Below, in pieces: positions 16,795 to 55,175 of a stretch of 64,000 nucleotides of DNA (position 1 is its first letter; each line of letters begins with the position of its first letter). The stretch is from Cinnamomum chago (Eukaryota > Streptophyta > Magnoliopsida > Laurales > Lauraceae): NCBI GenBank assembly GCA_038049695.1, contig CP142453.1, positions 132,668,001 to 132,732,000 of the forward strand, in the 5' to 3' direction. Below the pieces are notes generated by a model, which was not told where the DNA came from, made no database searches, and saw nothing but the letters and a program-made list of their open reading frames with translations. The translations under genes and the position numbers were made by a program.

Positions 16795-17805
16795 GACCCT
16801 CTTGGGCGGCAGCAAAGGCTCCTCTTCGGGACCTCCTGATCTTCGGCCCCTCTTGAGCTGGGGCAGTGGCAGACTCTTCGGCCCCTCCTGAGCTGAGGAG
16901 GCAGCAGGTCTTCCCCCCCTCTTGATCTTCAGGCCCTCATAAGCCGCAATGGCAGCAGCCAATATTCGGGCCCCTCTTGATCTTCAAGAGGTCATCACCT
17001 GAGGCAGCGGCTCGTTCTTGGAGCCCTCATGAGCCGTGGCAGCAGCAGCTCTTCAGTCGCTCCCCTTTTGATCCGCCACCTCTTCAGGACCTCTTGAGCT
17101 GCAAGGTGCCTCTTCAGCCCCTCTTGAGCTGCTGAAGTGGCAGCTCTTCAGCACCTCTTGATCTTCAGGCCCTCTTGAGTTGCCATCCTGATCTTCAGGC
17201 CCTAGTGAGGGCGGCTCTTCGGCCCCTCCTGATCTTCAGGCCCCTCTGAGCGGCGGCTCTTCGGCCCCTCCTGACCTTAAGGCCCTAGTAAGCGGCAGCT
17301 CTTCAACGAGCAGTGCCTCTTTGGCCCATCCTGATCTTCAGGCCCTAGCGAGCGGCGGCTCTTCGGCCCCTCCTGATCCTCAGGCCCTAGCGAGCAGCCC
17401 TCCCGACCTTCAGGCCCTAGCCCCACAGTGAGCAGCAGTCCTCTTCGGCCCCCCTCATGACCTTCAGGCCCTTACGAGCAGCGGTCCTCTTCGGCCCCCC
17501 TCATGACCTTCAGGCCCTAGCGAGCAGCGGTCCTCTTCGGCCCCTCACGATCTTAAGGCCCTAGCGAGCAGCGGTCCTCTTCGGCCCCTCATGACCTTCC
17601 CCTCATGACGGTCAGGCCCCAATGAGGTGCGGTGCTCCTCGGCCCCTCCCGATCTTCAGGCCCTAGCGAGGTGCGGTGCTCTTCGGCCCCTCCCGATCTT
17701 CAGGCCCTAGCGAGGTGCGGTGCTCTTCGGCCCCTCCTGATCTTCAGGCCCTAGCGAGGTGCGGTGCTCTTTGGCCCCTCCTGATCTTCAGGCCCTGGTT
17801 AGCAA
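16795..17805. repeat. GC-rich 44-bp minisatellite
   Basis: About 1 kb of tandem repeat with a core of GGCCCCTCCTGATCTTCAGG followed by CCCTAGCGAG and GTGCGGTGCTCTTC. At the right end (about 17640-17790) the unit is 44 bp and nearly uniform; toward the left it becomes shorter, variable and degenerate. As 44 is not a multiple of three and the units drift, this is not a coding repeat. It is far more GC-rich than the flanking DNA. Confidence 0.9.
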
Positions 17806-22262: not shown

Positions 22263-22970
22263 TCAGGCATCCTTAAACTTTCTAATCCATTCATTAACAG
22301 TGAGTTGGCCCAAAGTATGCAGAAAATCCCTCTCTTCGTCGGTGAAACCCTCATCGTCTAATCCATTCATCTCAGTCTCTTCAACAAGGCCCAAAAACTT
22401 TCTAGTTTCTATAGCAATGAAAATTTCAAAAGCCCAAATAAGACTCCTCTCTGTTTCGGTCAATACCTCATTCCCTGATCGGTTGATCCCAATCTCTCCA
22501 ACATTTTTAATTACTTTAACAATGAATTGGTGTAGAGCATCAGTAAAACTCCTCGCTGCCTCAGCAAAAGCCTCATTCCATGATCGGTCGATCTCAGTCT
22601 GCAAAATTCTCTTTTCAATTTTTTCAATCCCTTTAGCAATGATTTGGTGCACAGCATGAATAATACTCCCCTCTACCTCAGATAAATCCTCATCTGCTGA
22701 TCGGTCAATCTCAGCCTCTTCAACATGGCCTAAAAGTGTTTCAATTTCTTCAGCAATTAATTGGCGCAAAGTACGAATACAGTTCCTCAGTGTGTTGGAC
22801 ACATGCTCGTCCGCTAATAGGTTCATCTCAGTGTCATTAACAAGGCCCAACAGCCTTAAATCTTCCAACACCGTACCAGAAGACACAACATCAGAATAGC
22901 AGCAATGTAAAAATGAAATACAAAGAATAAACATACAAATGAAGAAAAATATAATCAAATGATTTTTCAT
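22263..22970 (-). CDS. Predicted secreted protein with five ~39-residue helical repeats, unknown family
   Basis: This is an intact 235-codon frame from ATG at 22970 to TGA at 22263-22265; an upstream TTG in frame is not needed. The N-terminus (MKNHLIIFFFICMFILC and on to HCCYSD, about residues 1-27) is a good signal peptide or membrane anchor. The rest is five tandem repeats, each anchored on T/A-E-I/M-D/N-R-S, then an acidic D/N-E, then E-R-S and a hydrophobic A-L-H-Q-F-I helix, then L-G-x-V-E-E. At DNA level the anchors lie near 22358, 22476, 22581, 22698 and 22815, giving spacings of about 39, 35, 39 and 39 codons. All length changes between repeats are multiples of three and no stop interrupts, although the repeats have diverged strongly; this suggests past selection on the protein. 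No catalytic motif is visible and I do not recognise the family. The likely role, an extracellular or membrane-tethered helical protein, is inference only. Confidence 0.65.
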   Translation of the reverse strand: MKNHLIIFFFICMFILCISFLHCCYSDVVSSGTVLEDLRLLGLVNDTEMNLLADEHVSNTLRNCIRTLRQLIAEEIETLLGHVEEAEIDRSADEDLSEVEGSIIHAVHQIIAKGIEKIEKRILQTEIDRSWNEAFAEAARSFTDALHQFIVKVIKNVGEIGINRSGNEVLTETERSLIWAFEIFIAIETRKFLGLVEETEMNGLDDEGFTDEERDFLHTLGQLTVNEWIRKFKDA

Positions 22971-23409
22971 ATTTAGGGGTCTTTTAAACAAGTTATATTA
23001 ATTTCCAAAAATAAATGCTATCAACAAGGAAAATTTAAGACGCATTTGTGCACATACTCAAGTCCTTTAAACAAATCAAGCATGAGTAAGGACCCTAGTT
23101 CTCAAGTTTCAGTCTACTTGTTTTGAAGATAGACATGCCCAAAATGTTCCTACTAAAGCACATTAGAACCTAAATTGATTAGAAAACATGAGAAAATCGT
23201 TAAAAAAAAATACCCATGTCTCAACGGAAGATCAAATCTAAAACAAACCATCAAAAATTCAATATTCATGCAATAAATGAAAATGTTTGTATTCACAGTC
23301 CAGTGTTTAAGACATCAACCAATTTGTAATGGGCGCATACCAAACCAACATCCCCAAAAGATTAATCAATCTAGAGAGAGAGGATCTAACCCAATCCTAC
23401 AACAAGAAG

Positions 23410-27268: not shown

Positions 27269-27594
27269 TGGTCATTTATTGCAAAACAATTACTGGTGTT
27301 TATTTCTAAATGATTTTCATGACTCTATGCAAAAGTTCAGATTAATTGATGTTTATATAACTCACAAAGTAGTTAAATGGATAAGTGGAAGAATTAGCGG
27401 GCTTGATGATGTGCATTTTGATGGGTTTGCAAACCGTGTGGTTGGACAATGTGTTTCATGAACTTGTGGTTAACCATGGCTACGACACCTGAAATGGTAC
27501 AGACGAAAGGAATCCACTGTGACCATTAACTTGTATTGTTGTTAATAGTTGGTAATTCCCATACACATGGACTTGTGTGTTCAGAGGGCCATCT

Positions 27595-30115
27595 CTTTTT
27601 TTTTAGAAACTCATCTCATCAATAGTTCAAAAGGCCATCTACTCACTCGCCATTTGGCTACCTCATAACTCCAGCAATGATTAATAAATGAAAGATAGCC
27701 AGATTTACCACAAAGGAAGAGTGAAAATTCACACCAGTTTACAGAAGTGCACCCTGCCCAGTTCTCTCATTTTTACTGTGTCCAATGTATAAGACCCAAT
27801 CCAGCCGGACAAAAACCACCATTTGTATCAAAAACCATCTAGATTTATACCAAACATCCCGATCTTGTTCAATCAAATTCGTATTGTACCAGTTGTATGT
27901 GGAGCTTTGTCATGTAGGTACACATCTGAGCATCGGCAAAAGGTTTGCTGAAGAATTATCTCATATAACCAACAAACCTAAAATTTAAAGGTCTCAACAT
28001 AAAAGGCCATTTAACATAGAAAATACATTCTAACATAGGAAGCCATCAACTCTCCTAAATCACATTCACAGTAACCAATTTTCTTCATTTGAAATCATCC
28101 TAATTGAATTTACACAACTCATTACAACATAGATGCCACAAAAATTTACATAACTCATTACAACATAGATGCCACAAAAATTTACATAACTCATTATCAT
28201 AGAGCATCATCCTCCATCATAAACATTATAAAAAACGCTTGGAGAAAATCCATCCTAGACATTAACATATCCCAAAGCCACACCCCAAAACATTCATGTG
28301 CAACTATCTTCTCAACTAAAGAATGCAGGCCATGATTTCGCGTTAAACCAACCATCATTTCATGGCGAGAATTCCAAACAAATGAAAATCTAATGTCTAA
28401 TTGTTGTTGCCTTAACTAAAAGTAGATTTTGAACATGCATGCTAGTTGCAAGTTTATTAGATTATCAAGGATTATGTTCTCTCTTTACCAAAAGAAAAAA
28501 GGAGGGGATTATGTTCTCTAGTAGACTATAATTCCATTATTTGTTATTCAAAACAGGTAAAAGAGCAGAGGTGGGGGATCATACTTTATACAAGGTTCAT
28601 TTGGCTCCGCAGACAACACACTGCATTAGTTCAATATAACTCAATTGGGCTTTAAAACAAGTGAAGACACCAGATTTGATACAAGGCCAACAAATGGAAA
28701 TATAAAAATGGAAGGAAATCAAATCCGATATGTTCTATTCAAGGTATTTACTAATCGAAAAAACAAAGCTGTTGACGTCAAAATATGAAACAACCAAACA
28801 GATTAACAAAAATAAAAATAATAAAAACACCTTTACAACAAGAGAAACGTCACAAACAAATCCTACAAAAGTTCACCATAAGAAATAAGATAAGATCATA
28901 AAGAGTCCAGTGATACCTTTATTCCCAAGTTCATGCAATGGCATAAAGACACAAGGCTCAAGACTCACATTGAGAGTTCGAGTACGCCCTTGCACGACAT
29001 AAAGAGCTTTATAAGATGAGAAAAGCCTCTTTAACATTAAAATCATTTGTTAGAAAAGAGAAACCGGCAAATCATTCTTCATCTCAGATACGATAGGGTT
29101 GTACCACGACATGATAACAAGCTTTCCATAAATTTCGATATGGATATTCCAATTTAACTACAATTGCAAAGGAAAATAGATATTAAAAATGTCATCTTCT
29201 GTCAAAAGACTTACAACAGAGTTAGCAACTATCGTCAAGGATCCCAAAGAGAGAACATAAATAGAACAGATTAGATTATTAAATAATACAAAATAATAAT
29301 AATAATAAAAAAAAAAAAAAAAAAAAGAGTGGAGACTGGTCATGGTGTGAGGCAGGCACAACCACCTACAAAATACTGGTATTCTGGAAGCGAGTGAATG
29401 ATCATCCGATCCCCACCAATTCAAATTCCACAAACGGCATATTCTTCCTTCCGAATGCCTTACACATAGCTTTATCCCTATCGGAGAGAGTGGGAATATA
29501 GTATATGAGATTTCCTTTACAGCTCATTTCGCTGGCACTAACAGAAATTGAACTACCATGACTCAAGAACAGCATACGATCACCCAAGTTTTCCACCTTC
29601 ATCCACTCCATCTCAGTCAAGTCGGCTCGAAAGACATCACAATTGAGATTGCAGCCACCATTCCCCATCATTCTCACAATCAATATCTCTCCACAAGATT
29701 CCACCAGAACAAATACATGATTCTCTAGAGTCGGTAGTAACTGAGTATTATTCCTAAGTTTCAATTTCATCATCACAGTAGCAGAATCATCTGGAAAGAG
29801 AGGGTCGATGACTGCAAGATTCCAATCCTCATAACTTAGCGAATGCAACTTTCATTTTTTTCCTTTATTAATTGATAATGTATACAACTTTCCTTCAAAG
29901 AAGATTGTATTTGACACCACAGTTTCCCTCCATTGGTGTTTATAAAATTGTCGCTCACAACATCGATATAGTAGGAATGTATTGTTTGATTTCCTGACAA
30001 AGATAACTCCATTAGGATCAAATGGAGTCGAAAAGAAAAGGCAATCAAGATAGCGAACGCGCAGTTCTAACCATGGGAGGACAACACGTTCCTCATTCTT
30101 CACGAGTAGGGATTT
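27595..30115 (-). repeat. Duplicated F-box segment, copy 1
   Basis: This matches 47755-50328 in the same orientation, about 20.2 kb away. It starts at GGCCATCTCTTTTTTT, covers about 1.7 kb downstream (3') of the F-box gene, and ends inside the F-box coding sequence. Identity looks high by eye, with small indels (for example around 27640 and 28500). A weaker third version of the 3' flank begins near 43.9 kb. Confidence 0.85.
29340..30115 (-). pseudogene. F-box/DUF295 pseudogene, 5'-truncated (copy 1)
   Basis: It aligns to the C-terminal two thirds of the intact F-box protein at 49550-50635. Three lesions are visible. First, the F-box and N-terminus are missing: homology stops at 30115, where foreign sequence and then the palindrome begin. 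Second, a CGA arginine codon has become TGA at 29852-29854. Third, a one-base deletion near 29417 (CCACCCAA to CCACCAA) shifts the frame so that the protein ends E-L-V-G-I-G. The remaining parts still read well (YLDCLFF, FVLVESCGEILIVRM), so decay is recent. Confidence 0.85.
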
Positions 30116-30198
30116 AAAAATGATAAGTGGGTCCTACTTAGATTTTGGCTCAAAGTTGACAAATATAGTGTAGCTCTTAGCCATTTTTACAAGAAGTT
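30116..30198. other. Unique junction sequence
   Basis: These ~83 bp separate the truncated F-box copy from the left palindrome arm. They match neither the intact F-box locus nor, clearly, the PIF/Harbinger interior present beyond the right arm. They mark the rearrangement breakpoint. Confidence 0.6.
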
Positions 30199-30592
30199 CT
30201 GCAAAGCACAATTTTAGCATAGCATTATCCCAGCACAAAATGGGGATCAAGATAGGAACGATGCCAAATAGGCCCTTAATGACCATAAGAGGTTTCCTTA
30301 GTTTTGTGAGAACGTTGATAGCTTAAACAAATGTTTTTCCAATTTATGCCCAAGAAGACTTAATGAAGAAGGATCTGGTGATAAAGATGGTCATCTACAA
30401 TATGCAGTCAACAATGAAGATGCAAGTAGCAACATAAATGCAACGATGATGTCAATGGTAAGCCAAGCATTAAAGAATCTATAACGAGCATCATTGAGAG
30501 TTGAGACTGGCCACAATGAAGACCAAGTGGTTGATGATGACATCAATAAGAATGCTTGAGTTGAGTCGAGGTTCCCAATTTCTACAGGAAAA

Positions 30593-30910
30593 ATGGAAGT
30601 TGCTAAATTTTGTGATCCAATATCTGTCATGGATTGGTACTCCATAACAGATGATAGGCGCGTCCAATTTGCAAAGGTGAAGGTGTTTAGGCCATATCCG
30701 TATTTAGTAAAAAGTTTGAAAGAACAAATGGAATGGGTTCCTTGTCTCATTCGCACTTGGGATAACATGAAGATGCGCCTTCATGAGAAGTACCTCTCAT
30801 CTGATTATGAGACCACCACTTTTTACCAGCTTGTTGCCTTGTGCTAATGACTCTCACCAATGAACTCTTTCCATTGAAGAATACACGGAGAAGTTCAATG
30901 ATTTGAAAAT
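30593..30910 (+). pseudogene. Ty3/gypsy gag relic (left arm)
   Basis: The frame from 30593 reads MEVAKFCDPISVMDWYS, then D-D-R-R-V-Q-F-A-K-V-K, RTWDNMKMRLHEKYL and DYETTTFYQL. After a stop and frameshift come S-I-E-E-Y-T-E-K-F-N-D-L. This order (W-x-D, then RTWxxMKxxLxxKYLxxDY, then S-I-E-E-Y-T-E-x-F) is the plant gypsy gag domain (Retrotrans_gag). No protease, RT or LTR follows. Copies are at 33629-33946 and 59415-59732. Confidence 0.7.
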
Positions 30911-31408
30911 CTAGAGTTGTGTAAATGAGGATGGGTGATAAACTCTCCCCAAATTCAAAAATGTGCTGCAAGTTGAAATTTGACAAAAGATGACATTGTT
31001 GAGGGCAGAACATTTGGAGAGCGCTTACTAATTCTTCAGACCCATATACATCAATCAAACCCCTTGCACTCATTAACCCTTAGACCCCCTTGCATCAATG
31101 GTTGTGATTCTCTAATTAGATTTTTTTTTCTAATAACTCCAATTAGAATGATATCATCGCCCCCGCTTTTCCCCTCCACCCCCTTCTCCCTTCCAATGAT
31201 ATTACTGTCCCTCCATGACTGGCATGCATTCAAGTGAGTCCCATATTTTTAAACATTGAGAGAGTACCTCTTGGGTGAAATCTTTAGCTCATATGATATA
31301 TATGGGTGCACTACAATATTATGCGACTTAAAGAAACAATACCAGATATTAGCTTTCATTAAATGAATTGATGGAACCAATCACTAACTAATCTTTCACA
31401 TGTTTCAG

Positions 31409-32254
31409 ACTTGAAGTCAGCAACGAGATTCGGGTATGGGAATGCTATCAATTAACTAGTAATCTAGTTGTTTGATAACTATTCTTTCTATAAATCTAAT
31501 ATTGTAATTTTTTGTTGTTATTGATAGCAACAAGCAGGTGAATACTATGCAAGACTAAGACAAACTGACTTTCCAGATGTCAGTAGTGACTTAGCACTAG
31601 CTGCTATAGTATATATCGCTGCTCTTAGTCGGAGATCAGCATACACGTTTAAGGGTAAGTTATAAGTCATATGGAGCATTTTATTTTATTATTTTTTTGT
31701 CGTCATCAAGTTAACTAACACACTTAAATTTTTTTTTTTTAAACAACCGGAGCTAAAAATATCGGAGATGAAGGATTCAATGTTTTTCGCTATGAAGACC
31801 GATATTGTTGAACATCTTCAGGGACATGGGTACCCTGACCTTCGACAGGAAAAGATCCAACCAGCACAGCTAGTGGTGAGTTTTGCAACAAAAAAAAATC
31901 AATAATTTCACTTTTACAATCATGTAGATATTTCAATAATATTTTTTTTTATAGGAACGATACCGTAGACAACTCAATATGCCTGATGCTGATAAGGATA
32001 GAATACTTCAGGCAATATGGCATATTGAGAATTCAGACGATCCGGCCCTCGCACTCTCGTAAGTTATAGACAATATTTTATTGAATATTTGGTTCTCACA
32101 TGTTATTCGAAACCTAACACTTCAAATTCAAATTTTACTGTGTTTTTTTTTGGCAGACAGCATGCTGATACTGTGGTTGCAGCATGGATCCTGCTGGCAC
32201 AGGCAGGAAATCATCCACCCATCACAATGGCAATGGTTTCAGCTGTTACGAGTG
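31409..32254 (+). pseudogene. TFIIB-family gene fragment with introns (left arm)
   Basis: Five exon-like blocks with GT-AG borders are seen: 31409-31433, 31528-31654, 31753-31875, 31955-32058 and 32157-32254. Joined, the last three read through in one frame. The blocks give RQTDFPDVSSDLALAAIVYI, then MKTDIVEHLQGHGYPDLRQ, IQPAQLVERYRRQLNMPDAD, and TVVAAWILLAQAGNHPPIT followed by A-V-T-S. This follows the two cyclin-like repeats of TFIIB/BRF-type factors: Q-P-x-x-x-x-R-R/F, then A-A-x-x-I/L-L-A-Q, then the x-V-T-S-V helix-turn-helix. The splice from block 2 to block 3 is out of phase by one base. The gene is cut at 32254, within the last repeat, by the palindrome centre. N-terminal exons (zinc ribbon) were not found. 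Kept introns mean the copy was made from DNA, not from mRNA. Confidence 0.65.
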
Positions 32255-32283
32255 TTCTACAATGGCAATGGTTTACGAGTGTT
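32255..32283. repeat. Palindrome spacer with templated filler
   Basis: The 29 bp between the arms are built from nearby sequence: TTCTACAATGGCAATGGTTT repeats ACAATGGCAATGGTTT from 32225-32239, and ACGAGTGTT repeats 32248-32256. Such short templated insertions are typical of template switching or microhomology-mediated end joining. Confidence 0.85.
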
Positions 32284-33130
32284 CACTCGTAACAGCTGAA
32301 ACCATTGCCATTGTGATGGGTGGATGATTTCCTGCCTGTGCCAGCAGGATCAATGCTGCAACCACAGTATCAGCATGCTGTCTGCAAAAAAAAACCACAG
32401 TAAAATTTGAATTTGAAGTGTTAGGTTTCGAATAACATGTGAGAACCAAATATTCAATAAAATATTGTCTATAACTTACGAGAGTGCGAGGGCCGGATCG
32501 TCTGAATTCTCAATATGCCATATTGCCTGAAGTATTCTATCCCTATCAGCATCAGGCATATTGAGTTGTTTACGGTATCGTTCCTATAAAAAAAAATATT
32601 ATTGAAATATCTACATGATTGTAAAAGTGAAATTATTGATTTTTTTTTGTTGCAAAACTCACCACTAGCTGTGCTGGTTGGATCTGTTCCTGTCGAAGGT
32701 CAAGGTACCCATGTCCCTGAAGATGTTCAACAATATCGGTCTTCATAGCGAAAAACGTTGAATCCTTCATCTCCGATATTTTCAGCTCCGGTTGTTTAAA
32801 AAAAAAAAAAATTAAGTGTGTTAGTTAACTTGATGACGACAAAAAAATAATAAAATAAAATGCTCCATATGACTTATAACTTACCCTTAAACGTGTATGC
32901 TGATCCCCGACTAAGAGCAGCGATATATACTATAGCAGCTAGTGTTAAGTCACTACCGACATCTGGAAAGTCAGTTTGTCTTAGTCTTGCATAGTATTCA
33001 CCTGCTTGTTGCTATCAATAACAACAAAAAATTAAAATATTAGATTTATAAAAAGAATAGTTATCAAACAACTAGATTACTAGTTAATTGATAGCATTCC
33101 CATACCCGAATCTCGTTGCTGACTTCAAGT
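32284..33130 (-). pseudogene. TFIIB-family gene fragment with introns (right arm)
   Basis: This is the mirror of the left-arm fragment, on the minus strand: exons 33106-33130, 32885-33011, 32663-32785, 32480-32583 and 32284-32381. Coding differences from the left arm include P to L and K to Q changes in block 3 (HLQGHGY-L-DLRQEQ). The 3' part of the gene is missing because the palindrome centre cuts it; the distal copy at 57520-59042 shows what should follow. Confidence 0.65.
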
Positions 33131-33628
33131 CTGAAACATGTGAAAGATTAGTTAGTGATTGGTTCCATCAATTCATTTAATGAAAGCTAATATCTGGTAT
33201 TGTTTCTTTAAGTCGCATAATATTGTAGTGCACCCATATATATCATATGAGCTAAAGATTTCACCCAAGAGGTACTCTCTCAATGTTTAAAAATATGGGA
33301 CTCACTTGAATGCATGCCAGTCATGGAGGGACAGTAATATCATTGGAAGGGAGACGGGGGTGGAGGGGAAAAGCAGGGGCGATGATATCATTCTAATTGG
33401 AGTTATTAGAAAAAAAATCTAATTAGAGAATTACAACCATTGATGCAAGGGGGTCTAAGGGTTAATGAGTGCAAGGGGTTTGATTGGTGTATATGGGTCT
33501 GAAGAATTAGTAAGCGCTCTCCAAATGTTCTGCCCTCAACAATGTCATCTTTTGTCAAATTTCAACTTGCAGCACATTTTTTAATTTGGGGGGGGGTTTA
33601 TCACCCATCCTCATTTACACAACTCTAG

Positions 33629-33946
33629 ATTTTCAAATCATTGAACTTCTCCGTGTATTCTTCAATGGAAAGAGTTCATTGGTGAGAGTCATTAGCACAA
33701 GGCAACAAGCTGGTAAAAAGTGGTGGTCTCATAATCAGATGAGAGGTACTTCTCATGAAGGCGCATCTTCATGTTATCCCAAGTGCGAATGAGACAAGGA
33801 ACCCATTCCATTTGTTCTTTCAAACTTTTTACTAAATACGAATATGGCCTAAACACCTTCACCTTTGCAAATTGGACGCGCCTATCATCTTTTATGGAGT
33901 ACCAATCCATGACAGATATCGGATCACAAAATTCAGCAACTTCCAT
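33629..33946 (-). pseudogene. Ty3/gypsy gag relic (right arm)
   Basis: Mirror copy of 30593-30910, reading MEVAEFCDPISVMDWYS, then I-K-D-D-R-R. The three substitutions relative to the left arm (E for K, K for T, S for P) are shared with the distal copy at 59415-59732, so the right arm and the distal copy are closest relatives. It has the same premature stop after L-V-A-L-C. Confidence 0.7.
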
Positions 33947-34260
33947 TTTTCCTGTAGAAATTGGGAACCTCGACTCAACTCAAGCATTCTTATTGATGTC
34001 ATCATCAACCACTTGGTCTTCATTGTGGCCAGTCTCAACTCTCAATGATGCTCGTTATAGATTCTTTAATGCTTGGCTTACCATTGACATCATCGTTGCA
34101 TTTATGTTGCTACTTGCATCTTCATTGTTGACTGCATATTGTAGATGAACATCTTTATCACCAGATCCTTCTTCATTAAGTCTTCTTGGGCATAAATTGG
34201 ACAAACATTTGTTTAAGCTATCAACATTCTCACAAAACTAAGGAAACCTCTTATGGTCAT

Positions 34261-35307
34261 TAAGGGCCTATTTGGCATCGTTCCTATCTTGATCCCCATT
34301 TTGTGCTGAGATAATGCGCTAAAATTGTGCTTTGCAGTACATGTTTGACAACGTATTATTAAACTGCTCCACTGAGAATATGCTTTGTGGAGCTTGTTTG
34401 ATAACATCACAACAGTTTTATTCTAATGAACATAATCTAATGAAATCCCATTGCAACATAAATTAATTCTAGACATAATCATAACCACCACAAAAACTTA
34501 AAAATCAATCAATTGAAGAGTCACATCCATGACAGTACCAACATACAGTGAGATTCCAACCGGTCCAAACCCAAATTAATAAGGAAATAAGACATCCAGT
34601 TAAAAATAAGATTTTAAAGTTCTGCAACTCAACTTCATTTCCATCACTTTGCTTATATTTAACTCCACGTGCAATATGAATACAGAGGAGTTTAGAAATA
34701 ACTTTTGACAGGATATGCAGTAACAAGATTTCTTTATGGAAGGGAAGAAATTAAGAACCATGTACAAATAAACATCCGAACAAGCTCGAGTTGTAGATCC
34801 AGATGGCCCCTCTAGACCTCACCTCTCATATCTAACACAGACAATAAAAAATCAGAAAGAAATCACCTCATTATTTTCTAACATCATCCATCACCTAGTT
34901 TTTACTAATCAATATCAAGCGGATTCTTCAAGAGAGAGAGAGAGAGAGAGAGAGAATTGTAGCAAGGATTGGTGGGTTGAGGCCGGGGAAGAGAGAGATT
35001 TGCAGCAAGGTGGGTCATGAGAGAGAGAGAGAGGTCCTTGGAGAGAAATACACGCTTGAGAAGATTCAGAGACTGACATGGGGGTAGATCTGGAGACAGA
35101 CGCGTGATTGTGCCTGTGGGTTGGTTCTAAAAAAAACGAAGATTTTTTGTTTCGGATTTTCTACACCAGCAGGTCAAGATCCTGGGGGATTGTTCCAGCA
35201 GGAGTAGAATTCGGAACACTGGTTAACATTACCAAAAACGGTTTCCATCATCTTGACTCATGGGAACGTGAGAACGTCCGGATAGCATAATGCCAAACGG
35301 GGCCTAA
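34261..35307. mobile_element. PIF/Harbinger-like non-autonomous element, proximal
   Basis: The element (34264-35304) starts GGGCCTATTTGGCAT and ends ATGCCAAACGGGGCC, and is flanked by TAA on both sides (34261-34263 and 35305-35307), the PIF/Harbinger target duplication. The interior holds a (GA)n tract near 34930-34952 and no transposase. The left palindrome arm ends inside a partial copy of this element (TIR at about 30259-30276). The same element at 60050-61078 dates its insertion before the 6-kb duplication. Confidence 0.7.
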
Positions 35308-37578
35308 GCTTCCTCATATAACGATTCCCACTTTGAGTCATCGTGGAGATTAAACCAAAGATGGGACAACACTCATATAAGCTTCCTCATATAGTTGTTA
35401 TTAAAAGACTGATGTGACAACACTCAAATGAGGGACTGATACATGTAACGGTTTAGGGAAACAAGTATAACTCAGTGGAAATACAAATAGGACCAGATGA
35501 AAATTAAATAATGTGTCATATGTTGCTGTCACAGCCAGGAAAAACACTGCTATATGCTGCTGTATTGATGGGCACAGATTTGGGACTCATCTTGGGACTG
35601 TTTGAGGTTCAATAAGCTGCTGAATGGGTGTTGGTTGGTTCTAGTATAAAGGCTGTTAGGGTTGGGTTTACGAAGAGAGGGATTTGGAATTGAAAGTGGA
35701 TAGTTTTGGGACTGTTTGCTATGGGACATCAACTAAAATGTTGCTGTTTGGTTTTAAACAGCTGCTAGTTGAGTCATAAATCAAACATTAAAGCAAGATG
35801 GGGCTGCAGTAATTTGGGGAAATAAGCTTGGGTGGTGTATGAATGGATGGACTTGGACCACGAGTGGGACTTTTTGCGTAATTTTATGGGTCAGTCTTGG
35901 AATGGCAAGTTGTTGTTTCTGTTGGACAAAATCTGCACAATGCAATGGGCTGATTTTAGGTCAGTGGGAGAGTGTAGCTTCTGGGTGGCTGACAAGTGTT
36001 TTATGTAGGTTGAATCCTGATAATGGTCAAATCCACAATAAGAGCGGTAGCAGCAGTTGATCAAAAGAACTAAAACAACAACAAGAACTTGAATGCAGTT
36101 GAAAACAGCAAATTGAGTGAAATAGAAAACTAACCTTTTTGTAAGAGGACCAATTTTTTTTTCGGGAAGTTTATTTTTTTTGGGCTAAAAGTGAATGAAA
36201 CAAAGAGGAATCCTAATCTAAGACAGCGGAGTAAAAAATAAGACAATCGAAACGTGGATTGAAATTGCAGTATCAGTCGCTGTCGCGGTCGACCTTGGAA
36301 ACCCATACTACGTACATCACGGTCCATCAAGACGTGAATTTTTTTCGAACCCAAAAAAACTTCAAAAAATATCTAAAAAGCCAGAATATTGGAAAATGCT
36401 TGGAAACAATGTCTTTTTTCATTGGTGCCCACTATAGACCAAAATATCGGTCCCTTAAGTTGTAACATCTTGTAACGTTGTTTAATCTCTAACCGTTACA
36501 TATGTTAAGTTTTAGTGTTTAAGCTTTGGGCCTATTCTTACAATTTATAAATCTACTATTGTAGCCTATATTTAAAGTTTAAAGCACTTGAAATATTCAT
36601 CACCCTTATTTTAGTGGACACCACCCGGGGGACTAGTCATATTGGGTGTTGGGTCAAAGACCACAGGGATACCCACATCATAAAAAATGGGACTTAGGCC
36701 CATTGTTCAATTGACAACTATAGAACATTTTTCTAATATCATAATATCCATGTTTTTATAAATGACCAATTAGAAAAGCCCTGATTTTAATAAATGAGCA
36801 ATATTAGCATGTGGTACAATTAAAAAAAAAAGAGTCTGGATCTATGTTTTTTTGAAGAAAAATGCTGCCATATTATAGTTAAGCCCTAAAAACACACACA
36901 CTCATATATATACATATATATATAGAGAGAGAGATGCATACCTTTCGTAATTTAATCCTATAAATTGTTGTAATATTTGATCTGGATTTCCCTCTTCCTG
37001 TTTGGCATCATTTGATAGGATCAGCACACAATTTCTTTGAAATGAAAATTAAAGAAATCTGTTTTGACACACATTTCAAGTTGGACAATTCCCAATAAAA
37101 AAAGAAGGAAAAAGAAAAAGAAGAAACAATTAATGAACATGGTTTGTCGGAAGGAAATTGTAGAAAGGATTGTTTATCTTTTCTTTTTTTTTTTGCTCAT
37201 TTGAAAAAATTGGGGGTAAAAAAACTGTATAAGTTGGATGTACCTGCATTAAGTTTAATCCTGTTTTATTTTATTTTATCCGCCTTTCTTCTTTTCTTTC
37301 TTATTAATGTAATTTTTTCCATTTCTCTCAGTAATTTTGTTTTCAAAGTATATGTCGAACTGCATAGGCTTTATTACTAGTTTTGTATTTACTCTGTGCC
37401 TTTATTTATGAACTCAAACATACGCAATTTGAACTATTTTTATTTCTTAGTTGTTTCTTTGTCTTTCTTTTTTATTCTTTTACTTTCCATAGAGGTGTTT
37501 AAATCTATTACTTGCACTAGTTTCCTTTTCATTTGTACTGATTTTGTTTTGATGAATTGTTGTTTTTTGACAAATAGG
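35308..37578. other. Duplicated non-coding block
   Basis: This is identical or nearly so to 61082-63336. Small open frames on both strands have the same translation in both copies, but that reflects the youth of the duplication and not selection. It includes (TA)n/(GA)n near 36903-36936 and T-rich sequence at 37170-37300 leading into the LINE relic. Confidence 0.5.
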
Positions 37579-39700
37579 ATTGTTAATTTGCTAGGGCACG
37601 TAATCTTGCTCAATGCCCTAACCAACACGCAAAGTAGGAAAGGATATAGTGCTCTGTTTGCTAGAGTACAAGTGGAGATTGATTTTAGGAAGCGCTTGCT
37701 CAACGAATTGTAACTTCAGATGCCAAAAGGATGTAGATTCCAGTCGTTTTGTTGTAAGAACCTTCCTGCTCTTTTTTCAAAATTATGGACATGCTTATAT
37801 ACAACTGCCTCCATGAATATGTTGCAATTTTCTTGTTCAACAGTTAGTTGCTGGAAGGGAAAAACAAGGAAACCATCTAAGGTTTCTAGGCCGACTGTGT
37901 CGGATTCTGTTTTGGAACTCACTCCCAGAGAACAATTGCAAACAGGAATATCCTGTTTTTCATCTCCTCAAGAGCAATGGTTAGAAGTGTGACATAGGCA
38001 ACAAAATCGTTATGTTTCCCTTTGCAATACAAGGAGGTGTGGGCCAAAGTGAAAACACAAACGTGATGGTTGGTTCCTGAATCCCCATCATAAACAAAAA
38101 TTGTCCAACAGATTTGTCTATCTTCAGGAACGTTGGCGCTGATCACCTACTGTTAAGGTGATGGAATCAGGCTGTGCACAACCATCTCCTCATAAAATTG
38201 AGGTCTCTGTCCAAGACAGCGGGTCGAATCCAAAATGGAGCTGTTCCATCCATGTCGCAATCTGTCATATCTACGAGATCTTGTGATGGCAGAGATACAT
38301 CAAATGTACTATTGCCAGCTGTGATTTGGGAAATGCAATCTGCCACTCAATCTAGCTCAGTTCGAGATTTCAAGATGCCTAGAAAGAGTCTCAGAGTACA
38401 TTGACTAAGGTCAGGTTGTCCAGAGGGACACACAAGGAGTTCACAGTTATCCATAAACTTTAGAACCACGTGTTAGATGCCCCAGATTTGATATAGCCGA
38501 GTGCATCGCCATCTTTCCCAAACTACCCCAGGCTATTATGCATGGATACTTTCAAAATGGGCAATTTATCGTGTCATATCGTATTTAATACTTCACTTTT
38601 TGTGTAAAATATGTGTCCCTGCCGTATCCATTCCATGCATTATCTGGGCATCATAGACCCCAGGTGTAATCGACCTATTGCGCCATCATTTCCAGGACCT
38701 ATCAGCCCACCTTCGTTATTCCAACCACGGAACTGGCATCCTAAGCGCGAACAATCATACAACTATAATGGTGCAGAAGGAAGTCAGTCCCTCAATTACT
38801 CAATTCTCTTCACACATCCTCTTACTCCAAAGTTTTCAGGAGCCCTGAAAATATCGACAACTAATGCAACTATGGCATTGTCGACCAACCAACGCATCAC
38901 ACATGAAATGCCAACCTCCCACATCTCATAACCTTTGTTGGAGGGTGGCCTCTCCTGCTTCCAAACCTGCCCATATGGGGGGACAGAGCTGAACCCCATA
39001 CCTTGCTCCTTCCCTCTACACCAACTAGTATGGCCACCTTTCTCGTTTCCGATTTTCCCACTTACCCATTTCCATATCCAACTAAGTTCTACCTGTGCAT
39101 CTTTCAACCTTTACGTAGACCCGGTCCAACCTTCTGCCTCTACTGGAATACCAGGCCCCAGTGAAGGGTCCTCCCTAATTTGTGTTGGGACAACAGGGAA
39201 TTCCATCCATGTTTTCTCAGCGGGTTTTCTCAGCGGACACACTCCTTCTCCCTAGGACCGAACGGCCCTCCAGAAGGTCAGCCTTCAATTGACATCACAT
39301 CATAAAGTCCAGAACTCTGATACGTGAATTTCTGGATCACACTCTACACAACAACTCGGTTACTTCTAGGTTCCTTGGCAACAAACTTCAATCCAATACC
39401 AGGTTCAAATTTTGGTTGGGTCCAAAGCTAACTTGCCATCACCTTCGGAGTAGTGGATATCCCATCCCTCCAGCCAACTGCATAGAGATTTATTCCTTGA
39501 GTAAGGTACATCTCTCGCCGTGTTTTTTAATTAAGTCCTGATGAAAAAGACAATTTTGAGTTGGAACATGCATGGGACCTCTATGAAACTGATCAAGAAC
39601 ATCCCTTCTGGTTGATCATGGAATACAAACCACAAGCAAATTATTCTCTGGACGTTGAAGAGGTGAGGGCATCATCTATAAACTGGGACCTACCTGAATT
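37579..39700 (+). pseudogene. LINE relic: DUF4283/CCHC-type ORF1 and start of ORF2
   Basis: The stretch 37579-37712 reads NLLGHVILLNALTNTQSRKG, then A-L-F-A-R-V-Q-V-E-I-D. This follows the plant pattern G-x-x-L-x-L-D-x-x-T, then A-R-V-x-V-E-I-D of DUF4283/zinc-knuckle proteins in LINE ORF1. A stop (TAA, 37711-37713) replaces the serine of the distal copy. A degenerate F-C-C-K...G-H zinc-knuckle-like stretch follows. Near 39541 M-K-K-T-I-L-S-W-N-M-H-G resembles the start of a LINE endonuclease, then stops. The element is broken by frameshifts and by a MITE at 38533-38656. Confidence 0.45.
38533..38656. mobile_element. 124-bp hAT-type MITE, second CTATGATGCA copy
   Basis: The ends CTATTATGCATGGATA and TATCTGGGCATCATAG match the family of 16366-16507, and the interior shares TCGTATTTAATACTTCAC-type sequence. 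ACCCCAGG flanks it exactly on both sides (38525-38532 and 38657-38664). It interrupts the LINE relic. Confidence 0.85.
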
Positions 39701-40279
39701 TCACGGCTTCAACTGTGGGACCTCACCCGTTTGTATGTGGGAAGGTCAGCAGGAGAAAATCACCCTAGACCACATATTGTTCACAGGGCATTTGTTTTTT
39801 TTTTTTTTTTCTTTTTTTGGGACCTACAAGTCTACCTATCTACATGCTCTAGCTCAAAGCAACAAACTGCCTTTTCCATGAAGGGTAGAGCGATATATAG
39901 TAATGTCAAACTGTATATGCCTCTCCTAATTAGTACATGTAGCGACAGTTATGGGACTCTGTTAATCTCAGGAAGAACATACTTCTTCCAGGGACCTTTG
40001 GATCTTGTTTGGAGAGTCTAATAGTGTTTTGGGTCATGGAGGAAAAATATGGCAGTTGCAGTTCAGACTCCTTTCATGCTGCCTCAAACAATTTTAGATT
40101 CCTCACATCTCACTGACATTGTGAGTCCTCCATACACATGAAATAATATCAATCAATTTCCATATAAAATGCTGGCAGGACGGAATAGATGTCTGGCAAA
40201 TGACTGTTGGATTAGATTAACCAAGAAAAAAAAGTTAGGCAATTTCGATTTGGAAATATGTGGATCTGGTTTGTATTAC
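39701..40279. other. Intergenic stretch
   Basis: A run of T at 39795-39816 and short open frames without protein character. On the minus strand the last ~70 bp would be intron next to the exon at 40280-40447. Confidence 0.45.
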
Positions 40280-40560: not shown

Positions 40561-41940
40561 AAATGGGTTTTTTTAGGTGTATATGAGAATGGATGGATGA
40601 AGGGTTTATAACAGTTAAACCCAAGTCCATCTAAATACTGAACTTTATAAACCATCCAGCTGTTTGGGACCCATTTACCCGGACTTGCTTGGGCCAGTTC
40701 TTTCGGGTAAATGGATAGTAATTGACATCCTTTTTAGAATCTAGGGAATGAAGGCAGATTGCTAAGATACACATACAATAATAGGATAACAAATGGGTAA
40801 TCCAACCTATCATCTCAACCACTTTGATTATCATCTAACACCTGAGTCCAAATCCTCTTGGCCGAAAGAAATCCTGAGTTATGCCAAATTGCCAATTTAT
40901 TGAAAATAAATGCCGGTCCTATGCACAGGGTATTGCCAAAAATTTACCTCAATTAGAGTCGGTCTAACCATTAGAAGACCGTTTAACCAAAAAAAAGTAA
41001 AGGCAATAAAAAAGAAAAAACACACACAGAGGGTATGTTTCTCTTCTTTCTTTCTTTTTTTTTCCTTGTAAAATAGACAATAGTGTCTTAATCATTTTTC
41101 TAATAAACTTTCAATCTTACAGTGTGGGACCAACTCCCATTGGGAGTTAGGATTTTAAAACACCCCAATACCCCATACATTAGAAGGGAGCTTATTTTCA
41201 GCCTGATTGACTTCTCACCATATGGGCCCAATTATGAAGTTCCACTCCACTCAATTTATTTAGGCCTATTCAAGCCCAGAACAACTCGGCTTTAGAAACA
41301 CTGGCTCATGACCAGCCCAATTCCAACACGGGCGATAAAAGTTAGACCCAAGCCCGCCCATTTAATCAATCGGGCCGGGCCGAAATATGGGTGATACCCC
41401 TAGGGACATTAATTTCTACAACTTCTCGTAAAGGGCTGTTTCCGATTTTTTTTTTTTTTTTCTGTTTAATGAATTTCTCCCTCAAAGGGCAAGAAAAGTC
41501 TGACAGTACCCACTTCCTATTTTTCTTCACTAATTCAACCCAATTCACTGACTGTTTAAAAGGGTCCCTTGAGTCATCATAGTCTAATTCAAAAATCACA
41601 TGCTAAACCACCCTTTCAATGCCATGGAAAGATGGAAAGAGAGTGCACGTTCTTGTGCCTGTTGGCCTCTCTTGATGCTATAATGCTCTTCCCATCTACA
41701 CATTTCCCCAATGAAAATAACCCCCCTTCACCTACCTAGTAAAATAAGAGGAGAAATCAATTGGGGAGGTTGGTTTTGGATAAGAGATCTCTTTCCTTGG
41801 GTACATAAACATTAAATTGGCTTCTCAAAGTCTCTAACCTTATGTAAAGTATTCAATCTAGCATCACATGCTTTCTTTCTTTTCCCCTCCCTTGGATGCT
41901 GAACAAACCATGGCTCAAAAACAGAAAAGAGATCATCAAA
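40561..41940. other. Intergenic stretch with hAT-like debris at 41262-41405
   Basis: The stretch 41262-41405 (GGCTTTAGAAACACTGGC, CCCGCCCATTTAATCAAT) is a diverged piece of the element at 3797-4343 (compare about 4121-4205). A T-run lies at 41446-41461. Nothing coding was recognised. Confidence 0.5.
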
Positions 41941-42809
41941 GGACCTATTTGGATAAATAAGGAGTGAAGTAAAATGAAGTGGATTTCACATGTAGAGTGG
42001 AGTGAAGAGAAGTAGGTTGAAGTTAAAGTAGAGTACTTCACTTCACTCTATTTGGATACTTATTTTGAAGTTAAGGTTTGAAATAGAATGCACTTTTACT
42101 CAAGGAAATGGAAGTATTTAGAGTTGAAGTGAAATGAAGTATATGTGGCTCACAACATTACTTAATCTATCGGGCCAAGACTCATCCAAATGGGGTAGAG
42201 TTGAAATTTTAGACTGTTATGGCATATTTAACTCCACTCTACTCTATTTTTTGCCTATCCAAACAGTATTAGGAAAATAAAGAACCCAGAAGAAGGTGGC
42301 AACTAAAATCAACACAAACCGTAATCCATAAGAAATTTAATAAAAACCACCTACAAATTAATTCAAGATCAATGAAAGAAACAATTTTTAGCTGAAAAGG
42401 CACAAAGAAATCATAAAATTAAAGAAATAAAAGGACCCAAAAGAAGGGGTAAAGTAAAATCAGTATAATCCATTTAGGACCTGTTTGGATAAATGAGGAG
42501 TGGAGTAAAATGAAGTGGATTTCACATGTAAAGTGGAGTGAAGAGAAGTAGGCTAAAGTTAAAGTAGAGTACTTCACTTCACTCCATTTGGATACTTATT
42601 TTGAAGTTAAGGTTTGAAGTAGAATGCACTTTTACTCAAGGAAATTAAAGTATTTAGAGTTGAAGTGAAATGAAGTACATGTAGCTCACAACATTACTTC
42701 ATCTATCGAGCCAAGACTCATCCAAACGGAATAGAGTTGAAATTTTAGATTGTTATGGCCCATTTAACTTCACTCTACTCTATTTTTTGCCTATCCAAAC
42801 AAGCCCTAA
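41941..42809. repeat. Tandem duplication of a 330-bp TIR element with flank
   Basis: Two copies, 41941-42272 and 42480-42809, start GGACCTATTTGGATAAATRA / GGACCTGTTTGGATAAAT and end with TGCCTATCCAAACA. The ends are inverted-repeat-like (GGGCTTGTTTGGATAG). The sequence between them (AATAAAGAACCCAGAAGAAG) is itself repeated before the second copy (AATAAAAGGACCCAAAAGAA). The unit of about 540 bp was therefore duplicated in tandem after insertion. Confidence 0.75.
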
Positions 42810-43059
42810 GAAAGTAAAGAAAACCAAGGAGAACCAACAGATGATTGATTGTACATCTGGAAAACCCAAGATTTGCATGAGAAGGGAGAAGCTTGAAGAA
42901 AAGAAGGGAGTCTTGCGTTGTCGTTGCAGTTGTTGTAGCTTCTTCAGCCAGAGCACATATTCTTAGGGTTTTGGAGCGAAAAAAAAAAGGTGAAAAACGT
43001 TGGGAATTTTGCAAATAAGAAAACATTAGAGATTTTGCAAGAAGCTGGTTTGATACCTA

Positions 43060-43930: not shown

Positions 43931-44990
43931 ACCCATGAAGACTTCAGATGGGTTCTATTCTACTGAGCCCCGATACGGTTTGGTTGAGAATTGGGGCTTT
44001 CAAAGATCAAATGGACAGACATTTTGAGGACATGAATAAGCCAAAGGCTACTAAAAGAATATGTAGAAGGTTACTAATTAGAACAGGAGAAAAAAGGAAA
44101 GATGGATTAATACAAGGTTCACTTGGATCTGCAAACAACCCACATGTGCATTTAGTTCAATACACCTCCTTCATAGACTTTACCATAGATGGCAGCATTT
44201 AAGCTTTACAGAAATGAAGACCATGTTTAAGGACGCCAACAAATGGATATGTCAAAACGGAAAGAAATAAAATGGACTTGTTCCATTCAGTATAGTTGTG
44301 GATCGAGGAAATAAAGGCTCTAAAACAAACATAGAAAACCACCATACAAGATTTGCTTGTGAGAGAGAGAGAAAAAAAAAAAAACCCTTTACAAGAAGGG
44401 GGAAAAATACAAACAAATGCTACAAAAGTTCAACCATAAAGAATAAGAGTACAGTGCTTACATTTACTCCCAGGTTCAAGCAACAGTAACAACACACGGG
44501 AGTCAAGACTCCCATCGAATGCCCCAATAGACCGACCCTCGTTCAACATAAAGGGCTTTATAAAAGATGAGAAAAGTCTCTCCCAAATTAAAATCATATG
44601 TTAGAAAGGAGAAACCATCAAATCCTTTTTCTAGCTATCTTAGACACTAAAGAGTTGTACGACAGAATGATGACGAGGTTCACATAAAATAACCACATGG
44701 ATGTTCTAATTTAACCAGAATTACAAAGGCAAATAGATGTTACAAATACAAACGCCATAGAGAAAGCACTTATCATTGTTGATCCAAAACAGAAACATAA
44801 ATAGAACACAGTATATTATTTTAAAAAGAAAGGGAAAAAATTGAAGTTGAGACTTAGGTAGTCATGGTGTGAGCCGGGCACACCCAGCCACAAAATCCAA
44901 CGACAACTCTGGAATCGAGTGAAATGTCATCCTGTAACATCCCACCCTTCACACATGCATGATATTGTCCGCTTTAGCCCGCCTGCATGC

Positions 44991-45056
44991 GCGAGGACTT
45001 CCCAGGAGGTCACCCATCCTAGTACTGCTCCCGCCCGAGCACGCTTAACCTCGGAG
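44991..45056 (-). other. 5S rRNA-derived block in 3' LTR of Cassandra
   Basis: The minus strand reads ACTCCGAGGTTAAGCGTGCT, CGGGCG, AGTACTAGGATGGGTGACCT, CCTGGGAAGTCCTCG. This is the 3' half of plant 5S rRNA, including the internal control region used by TFIIIA/RNA polymerase III. It is not a complete 5S gene, because the first ~50 nt are absent. Confidence 0.95.
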
Positions 45057-45398
45057 TTTTTACGTTTTTCCGGGGCCGCACGGTTTTAAAAGGCCTCATG
45101 CAAGGTAAGGGTGTAAACTTTACATATAACCCCATTCACTTTCCTCTCTATAGTCGATGTGGGACTCCGGGGCATCACATTCCACCCCCCTTAGGGCTGC
45201 ACGTCCCTGTGCAGTAGCCTGTCAGTCCCTGTAGCCTGCCAGCCCTCTTGGCCCGCCCACATGGAGACCCGCCCACTTGCACCAGACCACGGCAGGGGAC
45301 CCACACTCGAACTAGTCGAGAGTCGGCTCTGATACCATTTGTAACGCCCCACCCTTCACACATGAATGATATTGTCCGCTTTAGCCCGCGTGCACGCA

Positions 45399-45463
45399 CG
45401 AGGACTTCCCAGGAGGTCACCCATCCTAGTACTGCTCCCGCCCGAGCACGCTTAACCTCGGAG
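45399..45463 (-). other. 5S rRNA-derived block in 5' LTR of Cassandra
   Basis: Same 5S-like block as in the other LTR, here in the promoter-bearing 5' LTR of the minus-strand element. It is expected to provide the RNA polymerase III internal promoter. The two LTRs differ at only a few positions, so the insertion is fairly young. Confidence 0.9.
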
Positions 45464-46639
45464 TTTTTACTTTTTTCCGGGGCCGCACGGTTTTAAAAGG
45501 CCTCATGCAAGGTAAGGGTGTAAACTTTACATATAACCTCATTCACTTTCCTCTCTATAGTCGATGTGGGACTCCGAGGCGTCACACATCCCATCCCTAC
45601 CCAATTTAAATTCCACATAGGGAGGATTAAACCCATAGAATTCCTTACTCACAATTTAAACCTCTAGGCCAAAGTGGCAATATAGTAGACCTGATTTCCT
45701 TTGCAACTCATTTCACTAGCACCAACAGAAACTGAACTACCATGACTCAAGAACAATACTCGATCACCCAAGTTCTCCACTTTCGTCCACTCCATCTTGG
45801 CCAAGTTGGCTCGAAAAACATCACAACCGAGGCCACAGACACGATTCCACCTCATTCTCACGATCAGTATCTCTCCACAAGATTCCACCAAATAAATATA
45901 TGAAGCCCTAGCGTTGGTGATAACTGGGTATTCTTCCTCAATTTCAATTTCATCCCCTTAATAGCAAAATTATATGGAAAAAGGGGGTCGACGACTGCAA
46001 GACTCCAATCCTCATTCAGACTCCAATTTTCATCATTCAACACATGCCACTTTCCTTTTTTTCCTTCTTTAATTTAAATGTATGCAACTTTCCTTCAAAG
46101 AAAATGTTATTAGACATGACAGTTTCCTTCCACTGATGTTCATGAAACTATTGGTCACAACGTCGATAAAGAAGGAATGTATTGTTTGATTTTCTAACGA
46201 AGATAACTCCATCACGGTCAGATGGAGTCAGGAAGCGAAGGCAATCAAGATAGTGGACGCTCGGTTCTCCCCTTGGAAGATAAATATATTCCTTATCCTT
46301 CATGAGTAAGGAGTGCCATATATTATAACTATTAGTGGGTACGAACAACATCCAACCCTGGGAAGATGAAATGCAGGATGGCACATCGAGTTCGTGCACT
46401 GGCGTCTTATATGTTCTCTTTTCAAAGATACTGAAGATTTCAACAAAACCTTTTTTCTTAAAGGCTCTATAAAAGATAAAGAAGGGAGAACAGGACATTG
46501 TCGTTTGGCTATCCACCATGTGCAGTAAATGGAGCAAAAAAGAAGACGTCCAGGTATGGTTAGGTGCTTCAAGATCAGTTCAAGAAGACACTGGGGAAAA
46601 TCTGACCAGCTACTAGTCTTTTCCATGCCAAACAGTGCA

Positions 46640-47754
46640 CGCAGTGGAAATTGTAGGGCCAGGATTTACTCACAGTGAGGGCAAGCGATAGTCGATCAAA
46701 AACATCAATAACTACATTTCCACAGTGAGGGCAAGTGATGGTTGATCGATAACATCATAAACTGCATTGCCACGTTCTTTTCCTATTAACAATGACTAGA
46801 AGAAGAAAAAAAAAAGGGATTTGTTAACTTTAAGGCAATTAAAGACACTAATAAAAATAACAAGTTGCATGCATGTAAATGCTCTACACCAATCACTTAC
46901 AATAGAGAATTATCACTAAAAAGACAGTCCTCAATCTCAACAGATAATTTTCTATATTGTTTGCAACCTGTTTAAATCTATAAGTAATATATGATCGCAT
47001 CAACATTGATGCTATTAAGATTATTTTTCAGGAATCCAATGACAAACTAAAATGGAGCTACAGGTTTCGAGTAAACTACAAGAAGCTAACATGAACCAAC
47101 AAATAAAAATAAGCCGCGGTCGATACTTTTGTTAAATGTTAAGCAAGAAATTAAAAAGAAAATAAAAAAATACTAAAATTAGGGGTGTAAACTGGTCGGG
47201 TCGAGTCAAAACGGGTCAGGTTGACTAGGGTTCAGTCAGCAATTCTAAAGCATGAATATGACTGTCATTGTACGCAGTCCACATACCAACCTAATTGTCA
47301 CTAGTTGAATTTCAACCAGCTTCCACAGTTCATGTATATGGTTCTATGTAATGGGAACAACCGGGTTTGATAGATGAACCTCCACAGGCCCTATTGCCCA
47401 ACTATATGATTTATATTCTTCAATATTTGTGCAAGTTCTTTACCAAAAAAATATATATTTGTGCAAGTAGGGTTTATGTAATCATGAAGTAAATGCAATG
47501 CTTAATCTTTTGACACAGACGCTAACCTAAACAAGCCTAGACCATCCATAGAAAACATCTTCATACACGGCACAATAAAAAATTCAAGACTAAATTAACT
47601 GATAAACACATCAATAAAAATAGGGCTTTCAAACATCAAATCGACTGAAAAATGTTAAACATCACCTTCTGTAACCTAATTCATCAATTTGTACTAGGGG
47701 TGTAAGTGTGTAACAGTTCGGTTAACCATAGTTTTTGGAAAAACTGTTAACAGG
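46640..47754. repeat. 5' flank of F-box copy 3, related to 50680-51260
   Basis: It shares with the upstream flank of the intact gene the words GGGCAAGCGAT, CAATCACTTA, AAATGGAG and GAAGCTAAC, and a hAT-like end (GGGGTGTAAACTGGTCGGGT at 47184; GGGGGTAAATTGATCGAGTC at 51153). From about 47240 to 47750 it is unrelated intergenic sequence, ending in another hAT-like end (TAGGGGTGTAAGTGTGTAAC, about 47696) cut off at the start of the next duplicated segment. Confidence 0.6.
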
Positions 47755-50328: not shown

Positions 50329-50635
50329 AACACGTATTATGGGGTTGGTAAAGCATCCAACCATGGGAAGATGAAATGCAAACAGACCCAGCATCGTGTT
50401 CGTGTACTAGCGTTTTGTATCTTCTCTTGTCGGGAAGACTGAAGATTTCGACAATCTCTTTTCGGGTAACGAATGTGTAAAAGACAATGAAGGGGAGTAC
50501 GCGACATTGTCTCTTGGCTATACACCATGAGCGGCAAACGGAGCCAAAAAGAAGATGATCAGGCATACTTAGGCGCTGCAAGATCAGTTCAAGTAGACAT
50601 TGGGGAAGATCTGACCAACAAATAGTTCCTTCCAT
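49550..50635 (-). CDS. F-box protein with DUF295/KIB-type C-terminal domain
   Basis: This is an intact 361-codon single-exon frame. It starts at ATG 50635 (MEGTICWSDLPQCLLELILQ); an upstream in-frame TTG is not a plant start, and the same ATG is kept in copy 3. It ends at TGA 49550-49552. Residues about 7-45 form the F-box (W-S-D-L-P-Q-C-L-L-E-L-I, then D-H-L-L-F-G-S-V-C-R-S-W), which would bind SKP1 in an SCF ubiquitin ligase. Residues about 85-355 form the DUF295-type beta-propeller-like region: SSHGWMLY, VIFVRKSNNTFLLYRC, VFVLVDSCGEILIVRM, DRMLFLSRGSSISVSASE, N-R-I-Y-Y-I and a final C-A-W-L-T-P. Length and layout are normal for the family. The substrate cannot be inferred. A possible non-coding 5' exon lies at 51975-52290. 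This is the only one of three copies without lesions. Confidence 0.85.
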   Translation of the reverse strand: MEGTICWSDLPQCLLELILQRLSMPDHLLFGSVCRSWCIAKRQCRVLPFIVFYTFVTRKEIVEIFSLPDKRRYKTLVHEHDAGSVCISSSHGWMLYQPHNTCFKSLLVKNEERVVLPRLELRVRYLDCLFFSTPFDLDGVIFVRKSNNTFLLYRCCERQFYKHQWREIVVSNTIFFEGKLYTLSINKGKKRKLHSLSDEDWNLAVIDPLFPNDSCTVMMKLKLRNNTQLLPTLENHVFVLVDSCGEILIVRMMGNGGCNLNCDVFRADLTEMEWMKVENLGDRMLFLSRGSSISVSASEMSYKGNRIYYIPTLSDRDKAMCKAFGRKNMPFVEFELGGDRMIIHSLPEYQYFVGGCAWLTP

Positions 50636-54989: not shown

Positions 54990-55175
54990 CTAGCACGTGC
55001 ACCACCAACAATGAAGATACGAATAGATAAACTCTCATAATCCCAGCGAGCACAAATTTTTCTTTTTTTTTTCTCTCATTCCAAATTTGGCTCGCAAGCT
55101 TTATGTCTGTCTCTCTTTATTTCTCTCCCCTTTTAGCTTCTCTTCAAAGAGTAAGATGTGAGTGTCCCACTAAGT

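Follow-up and report, generated by a model that had tools for sequence, protein, structure and literature searches.

A 4.1-kb palindrome in a tandemly duplicated stretch of broken genes of Cinnamomum chago, probably formed by fold-back repair with deletion

A near-perfect palindrome of about 4.1 kb lies in a window of 64,000 nucleotides from the genome of Cinnamomum chago (C3:132668001-132732000; GenBank assembly GCA_038049695.1, contig CP142453.1), the window being the whole stretch of DNA that was analysed. The assembly comprises 1.06 Gb in 14 contigs, and the locus is about 1.6 Mb from the end of a 134-Mb contig. The palindrome is an inverted duplication with a deletion, set in a tandemly duplicated stretch of broken genes, and belongs to known kinds. 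The second of two tandem blocks carries the palindromic sequence as a single copy, and the first block lacks 7.3 kb of the second, has two truncated genes, and bears a slipped copy of the arm end at the palindrome centre. It is probable, in our judgment, that the palindrome arose by fold-back or template-switch repair within one of the two duplicates.

The preliminary description of this DNA reported the palindrome, with arms of about 2.06 kb separated by 29 bp, and suggested a self-comparison and an alignment of the arms. Both were carried out, by self-BLAST and arm alignment, and they confirm the palindrome and the length of its spacer. Its parts are as follows.

30196-32254 (about), plus strand: left arm (inverted copy), with the putative TFIIB-like exons read on the plus strand.
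32255-32283, no strand: spacer of 29 bp, made of 5 nucleotides, a 22-nucleotide copy of the arm end (32260-32281) and 2 nucleotides.
32284-34340, minus strand: right arm, with the same exons on the minus strand; collinear with block 2 and hence read as the original copy.

Against its own reverse complement, the segment 30199-34340 is 97.8% identical over 4151 columns (self-BLAST, each arm being counted twice). An alignment of the two arms shows 31 substitutions over 2055 columns, along with 4 insertions or deletions of 1-3 bases each, and the longest perfect run is 303 bp. The length and likeness of the arms are far beyond chance.

The surroundings of the palindrome are duplicated in tandem, and a single third copy of the arm sequence lies at 57638-64000; both were absent from the preliminary description. 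The two blocks and their parts are listed below.

27578-40263 (about), no strand: block 1 of the tandem duplication, delimited by self-BLAST and a fetched extension of the window; contains the palindrome.
27578-30119, minus strand: left part of block 1, a remnant of an F-box/KIB1-4 gene, whose homology to block 2 stops at 30119.
30120-30195, no strand: filler of 76 bp that separates the left arm from the truncated F-box gene.
34341-40263, no strand: right part of block 1, collinear with 60127-66070 of block 2 (the latter end lying beyond the window).
47745-66070 (about), no strand: block 2 of the tandem duplication, with its last 2 kb beyond the window.
49550-50746, minus strand: F-box/KIB1-4 open frame of block 2, 398 amino acids from stop to stop; counterpart of the cut gene of block 1.
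50331-57623, no strand: stretch of block 2 (about 7.3 kb) with no equivalent in block 1, including the remainder of both genes.
57638-64000, minus strand: unduplicated sequence, present once, that corresponds to the right arm and the flank on its right; the open frame of the gene runs leftward past the palindrome breakpoint.

Read from left to right, block 1 thus passes from F-box homology, which ends at 30119, through the 76-bp filler into the inverted left arm. The outer junctions are asymmetric: the filler and the cut F-box gene are found on the left, and on the right the homology of the arm to block 2 is unbroken through 34340. The match of the right arm in block 2 occurs only once and continues rightward into homology with the flank of that arm. 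Because the right arm passes into its flank with no break in this homology at 34340, the left arm is the added copy. As in the fold-back class of rearrangements, an inverted copy stands beside the breakpoint and sequence is lost across it, here the stretch of about 7.3 kb.

Block 2 retains both genes across both breakpoints, in support of a fold-back origin. Its 398-amino-acid frame matches the Pfam families KIB1-4 (E 4e-29) and F-box (E 4.6e-6), and its TFIIB-like open frame (57520-57762) extends beyond the end of the palindrome. F-box genes of the KIB1-4 type are a plant family. An older F-box relative, with 76% DNA identity, is found at 45587-46724, and a partial one lies at 70472-71713, in the extension beyond the window. 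With both gene frames continuing in block 2, on the simplest reading block 2 keeps the old arrangement and that of block 1 is derived.

On the plus strand, the centre of the palindrome consists of the 30 nucleotides of the arm end, 5 nucleotides, the same 30 nucleotides minus 8, 2 nucleotides, and the reverse complement of the 30. The spacer is therefore mostly a slipped 22-nucleotide copy of the arm end and does not resemble a classical unduplicated spacer. Both arms stop at the same base of the gene. We read this layout as an aborted first copy followed by a second priming.

We infer the following course of events. A tandem duplication would have produced two blocks, each of them containing a TFIIB-like gene fragment and an F-box/KIB1-4 gene together with other DNA of several kb. 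The chromosome would then have broken within the TFIIB-like gene of block 1, and the broken end would have turned back on itself, by fold-back or by a template switch. A first attempt at copying would have slipped and been aborted, after which the end would have made an inverted copy of about 2.06 kb of itself and been joined, through the 76-bp filler, to a break within the F-box gene, with loss of the intervening 7.3 kb.

Similar events have been reported on a larger scale (here and below, papers are cited from the available part of their text). In human inverted duplications beside deletions, some fold-back junctions carry small insertions copied from nearby (PMC3907307), and hairpin-primed fold-back has been described in yeast (PMC7467729, PMC10622511). 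The case described here shares with these an inverted copy joined to a deletion and short insertions at the junction, but it is small and interstitial, has a 29-bp spacer, and has an unrearranged tandem copy next to it in a plant-like genome. In yeast, the large-loop class comprises loops of 15 nucleotides or more, with a median of 36 nucleotides when Mre11 and Sae2 are present (PMC7467729), and the 29-nucleotide loop would fall into this class.

The order of events can be followed in a three-way comparison over 1905 columns, those present in the left arm, the right arm and block 2. Changes private to one arm number 13 on the left and 15 on the right; a further 57 columns set block 2 apart from both arms, and in 1 column all three differ. 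As the private changes are so few beside the 57 shared differences, the common ancestor of the arms is later than their split from block 2. Since then, the two arms have diverged from each other by 1.5%. Divergence of the right arm and its flank from block 2, taken per 250 bp, amounts to 0-2.1% over 33760-37510 and 4.0-7.4% over 37510-38238; for the gene part (32284-33283), the three-way counts give 3.6-7.2% per 250 bp, and the BLAST identities are 90-94% with gaps counted. The mosaic divergence of 33510-38238 from 59297-64000 (0-7.4% per 250 bp) suggests gene conversion, which, judged from this pattern, is the likely cause of the uneven divergence between the blocks. Since gene conversion is likely, no dates are given.

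Several points weigh against a fold-back origin. The 76-bp filler has no convincing source within the window. Divergence between the two blocks is a mosaic, ranging from 0 to 8.0% per 250-bp bin (not counting the first F-box bin, most of which is unaligned, or the last bin, which is empty), and the sequence of events may have been obscured by gene conversion. Unduplicated spacers in the human cases measure 766-70,466 bp (PMC3907307), as against 29 bp here, and the innermost loop of 2 nucleotides would belong to the short-loop class that is suppressed by Mre11/Sae2 in yeast (PMC7467729). Finally, the human and yeast fold-back studies deal with chromosome-scale events and not with an interstitial copy of 2 kb.

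The preliminary description further assigned to each arm exons of a TFIIB-family factor and a relic of a gypsy gag gene. The stretches concerned are as follows.

31528-31654, 31751-31875, 31955-32058 and 32157-32254 (the last reaching the centre), plus strand: putative TFIIB-like exons of the left arm; exon-like stretches with a marginal PF00382 match.
58066-58630, no strand: insert of about 565 bp in an exon of block 2, showing, by eye, inverted ends and a direct repeat of 9 bp; missing from the arms.
30560-30847, plus strand: open stretch previously called gag, with its mirror image at 33692-33979 on the minus strand.

The exon-like stretches hold up better than the family name. The first three form one open frame when joined, and each is followed by a GT donor. 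An AG precedes three of the four stretches; before 31751 stands GG (AG in block 2), but as the stretch from 31751 itself starts with AG, splicing could conceivably move by two bases there, which would alter the frame. The spliced peptides of the left and right arms score 13.3 and 14.4 bits against PF00382 (residues 22-44 and 24-44, respectively), below the cut-off of 23.6; two shorter typed pieces have no Pfam match at E up to 10. Only a composite peptide extended into block 2 passes, with 24.4 bits on a different stretch (residues 77-167), and with the block-2 exon the match reaches position 92 of the 92 in the profile. For the typed composite peptide, no protein homologs were found at E up to 1 among 332 candidates, and a comparison with solved structures returned one weak match, to a designed protein (E 0.72). 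A Pfam match of the composite peptide to Rrf2 (20 bits) fell under its cut-off of 30 and was rejected, as were two further matches above E 0.1. A TFIIB-like identity of the fragment is, on these profile scores, possible but thin.

The block-2 copy of the gene is itself broken, by the insert in an exon and, in the gene part, by gaps of 1, 2 and 12 bases relative to the arms, and 135 bp of the arms are missing from it. The insert has the look of a miniature inverted-repeat transposable element, presumably of the Mutator type. As for the 95-amino-acid frame named gag, Pfam searches at E up to 10 (right arm) and up to 1 (both arms) returned nothing, and the gag reading was rejected.

It was also proposed that a transcript crossing the centre would form a hairpin yielding small interfering RNAs (siRNAs) directed at the parental gene and at further copies of it. 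A natural hairpin-RNA locus of this kind, in which read-through gives double-stranded RNA whose small RNAs act on related copies, would be compatible with a fold-back origin; as the explanation of the palindrome we find it rather doubtful. In its favor, the palindrome has near-identical arms able to pair, as siRNA-type inverted repeats do: 1450 of the 2040 left-arm 21-mers recur identically in the right arm, and 214 of the 835 from the gene part are found exactly in block 2. Comparable repeats that make siRNAs are the soybean CHS I inverted repeat (PMC3804491) and an inverted duplication in Arabidopsis (PMC350667), and CHS siRNAs with mismatches are reported to act on targets that are 82% identical (PMC3804491).

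The pairing power of the arms thus stands; the parental gene as a target is not supported in the form proposed. Both genome searches for the gene were heuristic, scored the best candidates only and covered this one 1.06-Gb assembly. At the DNA level, with 2 candidates scored, the gene part matched 4 pieces, all of them in the two arms and the block-2 copy. At the protein level, with 12 candidates scored, 13 of the 14 matches were in those three copies; the other lies on C1 (E 0.41, 32% identity), where scans of two frames and of a typed join brought no match to TFIIB, and it was rejected as a relative. These searches found no intact related gene, and the three copies are all broken. Because the gene part matches only these copies, the proposed silencing of a parental gene is left with no identified target. 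A literature search for a plant siRNA inverted repeat of a TFIIB kind brought up only a general review of non-coding RNAs. Within the window, Rfam gave no match in the arms at gathering scores, and ARAGORN found no transfer RNA.

Nor do base changes clearly set the palindrome apart. Arm-private C-to-T changes are enriched at CG/CHG (7/342) over CHH sites (4/1084; p 0.006). However, the CG/CHH ratio of unpolarised C/T changes, 4.2 between the arms, is close to that in adjoining unduplicated DNA: 3.8 for 34341-40263 and 2.7 for the F-box part, each against block 2. The ratio for the right arm against block 2 is somewhat higher, at 6.4. With small counts and a similar bias in the control DNA, there is no clear palindrome-specific methylation signal. 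Judging from the arms, a hairpin RNA from the palindrome is possible, and the silencing scenario is possible in mechanism, with no intact target found. There is no support here for a silencer of a basal transcription factor. That the palindrome is a young hairpin-RNA locus born of one repair event, with the single copy some 25 kb away in the sister duplicate as its sole near-identical partner, is a tentative suggestion that we consider unlikely.

Alternatively, two independent inverted copies, made by duplication and inversion, could have been united later by deletion of the DNA between them. The abundance of tandem duplication in the region and the mosaic of divergence would suit such a history, but neither the common end base of the arms nor the slipped end copy in the spacer is expected from a random deletion of a spacer, and we regard this course as unlikely. 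An artefact of assembly or reads, that is, a palindromic chimera or a false duplication, is a decidedly unlikely source. Chimeric long reads can yield long palindromes; here, however, the arms carry 13 and 15 private substitutions relative to block 2, the outer junction is asymmetric, with a filler and a cut F-box gene, and the locus is interior to its 134-Mb contig. An origin as a Foldback or Mutator-like transposable element, with long inverted repeats at its ends, is scarcely credible and was rejected: the inverted arms are long, and among the first 302 bp of the arm a dispersed repeat at positions 2-93 (30200-30291) accounts for 36 of the 40 genome matches listed, but only 3 of these 40 cover the whole 302 bp, all within the window (the counts being lower bounds), an outer end is missing from the right arm, as block-2 homology crosses 34340, and defined outer ends, other whole copies and a target-site duplication were lacking, with no flanking direct repeat seen by eye.

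The window contains several further features. Two marginal matches to 5S ribosomal RNA (44981-45093 and 45387-45525, minus strand; 38.4 and 38.6 bits, with an Rfam cut-off of 38) overlap direct repeats at 44933-45179 and 45340-45586 that are 96% identical. A reverse transcriptase fragment at 7214-7540 on the plus strand (PF07727, E 2.8e-22) is, we assume, of the copia type. An open frame of 244 amino acids (22266-22997, minus strand) has, as judged by eye, internal repeats and a hydrophobic segment close to its start; no Pfam family matches it above cut-off. Two direct repeats of about 345 bp (41940-42284 and 42476-42821) are 92% identical, and a cluster of diverged direct repeats (roughly 73-92% identical) occupies 17183-17796.

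Among plant systems, the Arabidopsis PAI inverted repeat consists of full inverted genes with little DNA between them and has unlinked targets. Inverted copies with little DNA between are common to both cases; here, the copies are of a fragment, and no target was found. The soybean CHS I locus is likewise a naturally occurring inverted repeat, derived from gene sequence and lying near related copies, but it involves CHS genes, expressed targets and measured siRNAs (PMC3804491), whereas the present one consists of broken fragments known from DNA, with no target found. Plant microRNA genes that originate through inverted duplication (PMC3237417) resemble it in being derived from pseudogenes, whereas the arms here are still 2 kb long and near identical and have no Rfam match at gathering score.

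The locus is a small, well-resolved example of the birth of a palindrome, with breakpoints, filler, slipped central copy and unrearranged sister block all within 40 kb. If transcribed, it would represent the start of a hairpin-RNA locus ahead of any functional target, and if it were indeed such a locus, the birth of a silencing locus could be compared side by side with its unrearranged ancestor.

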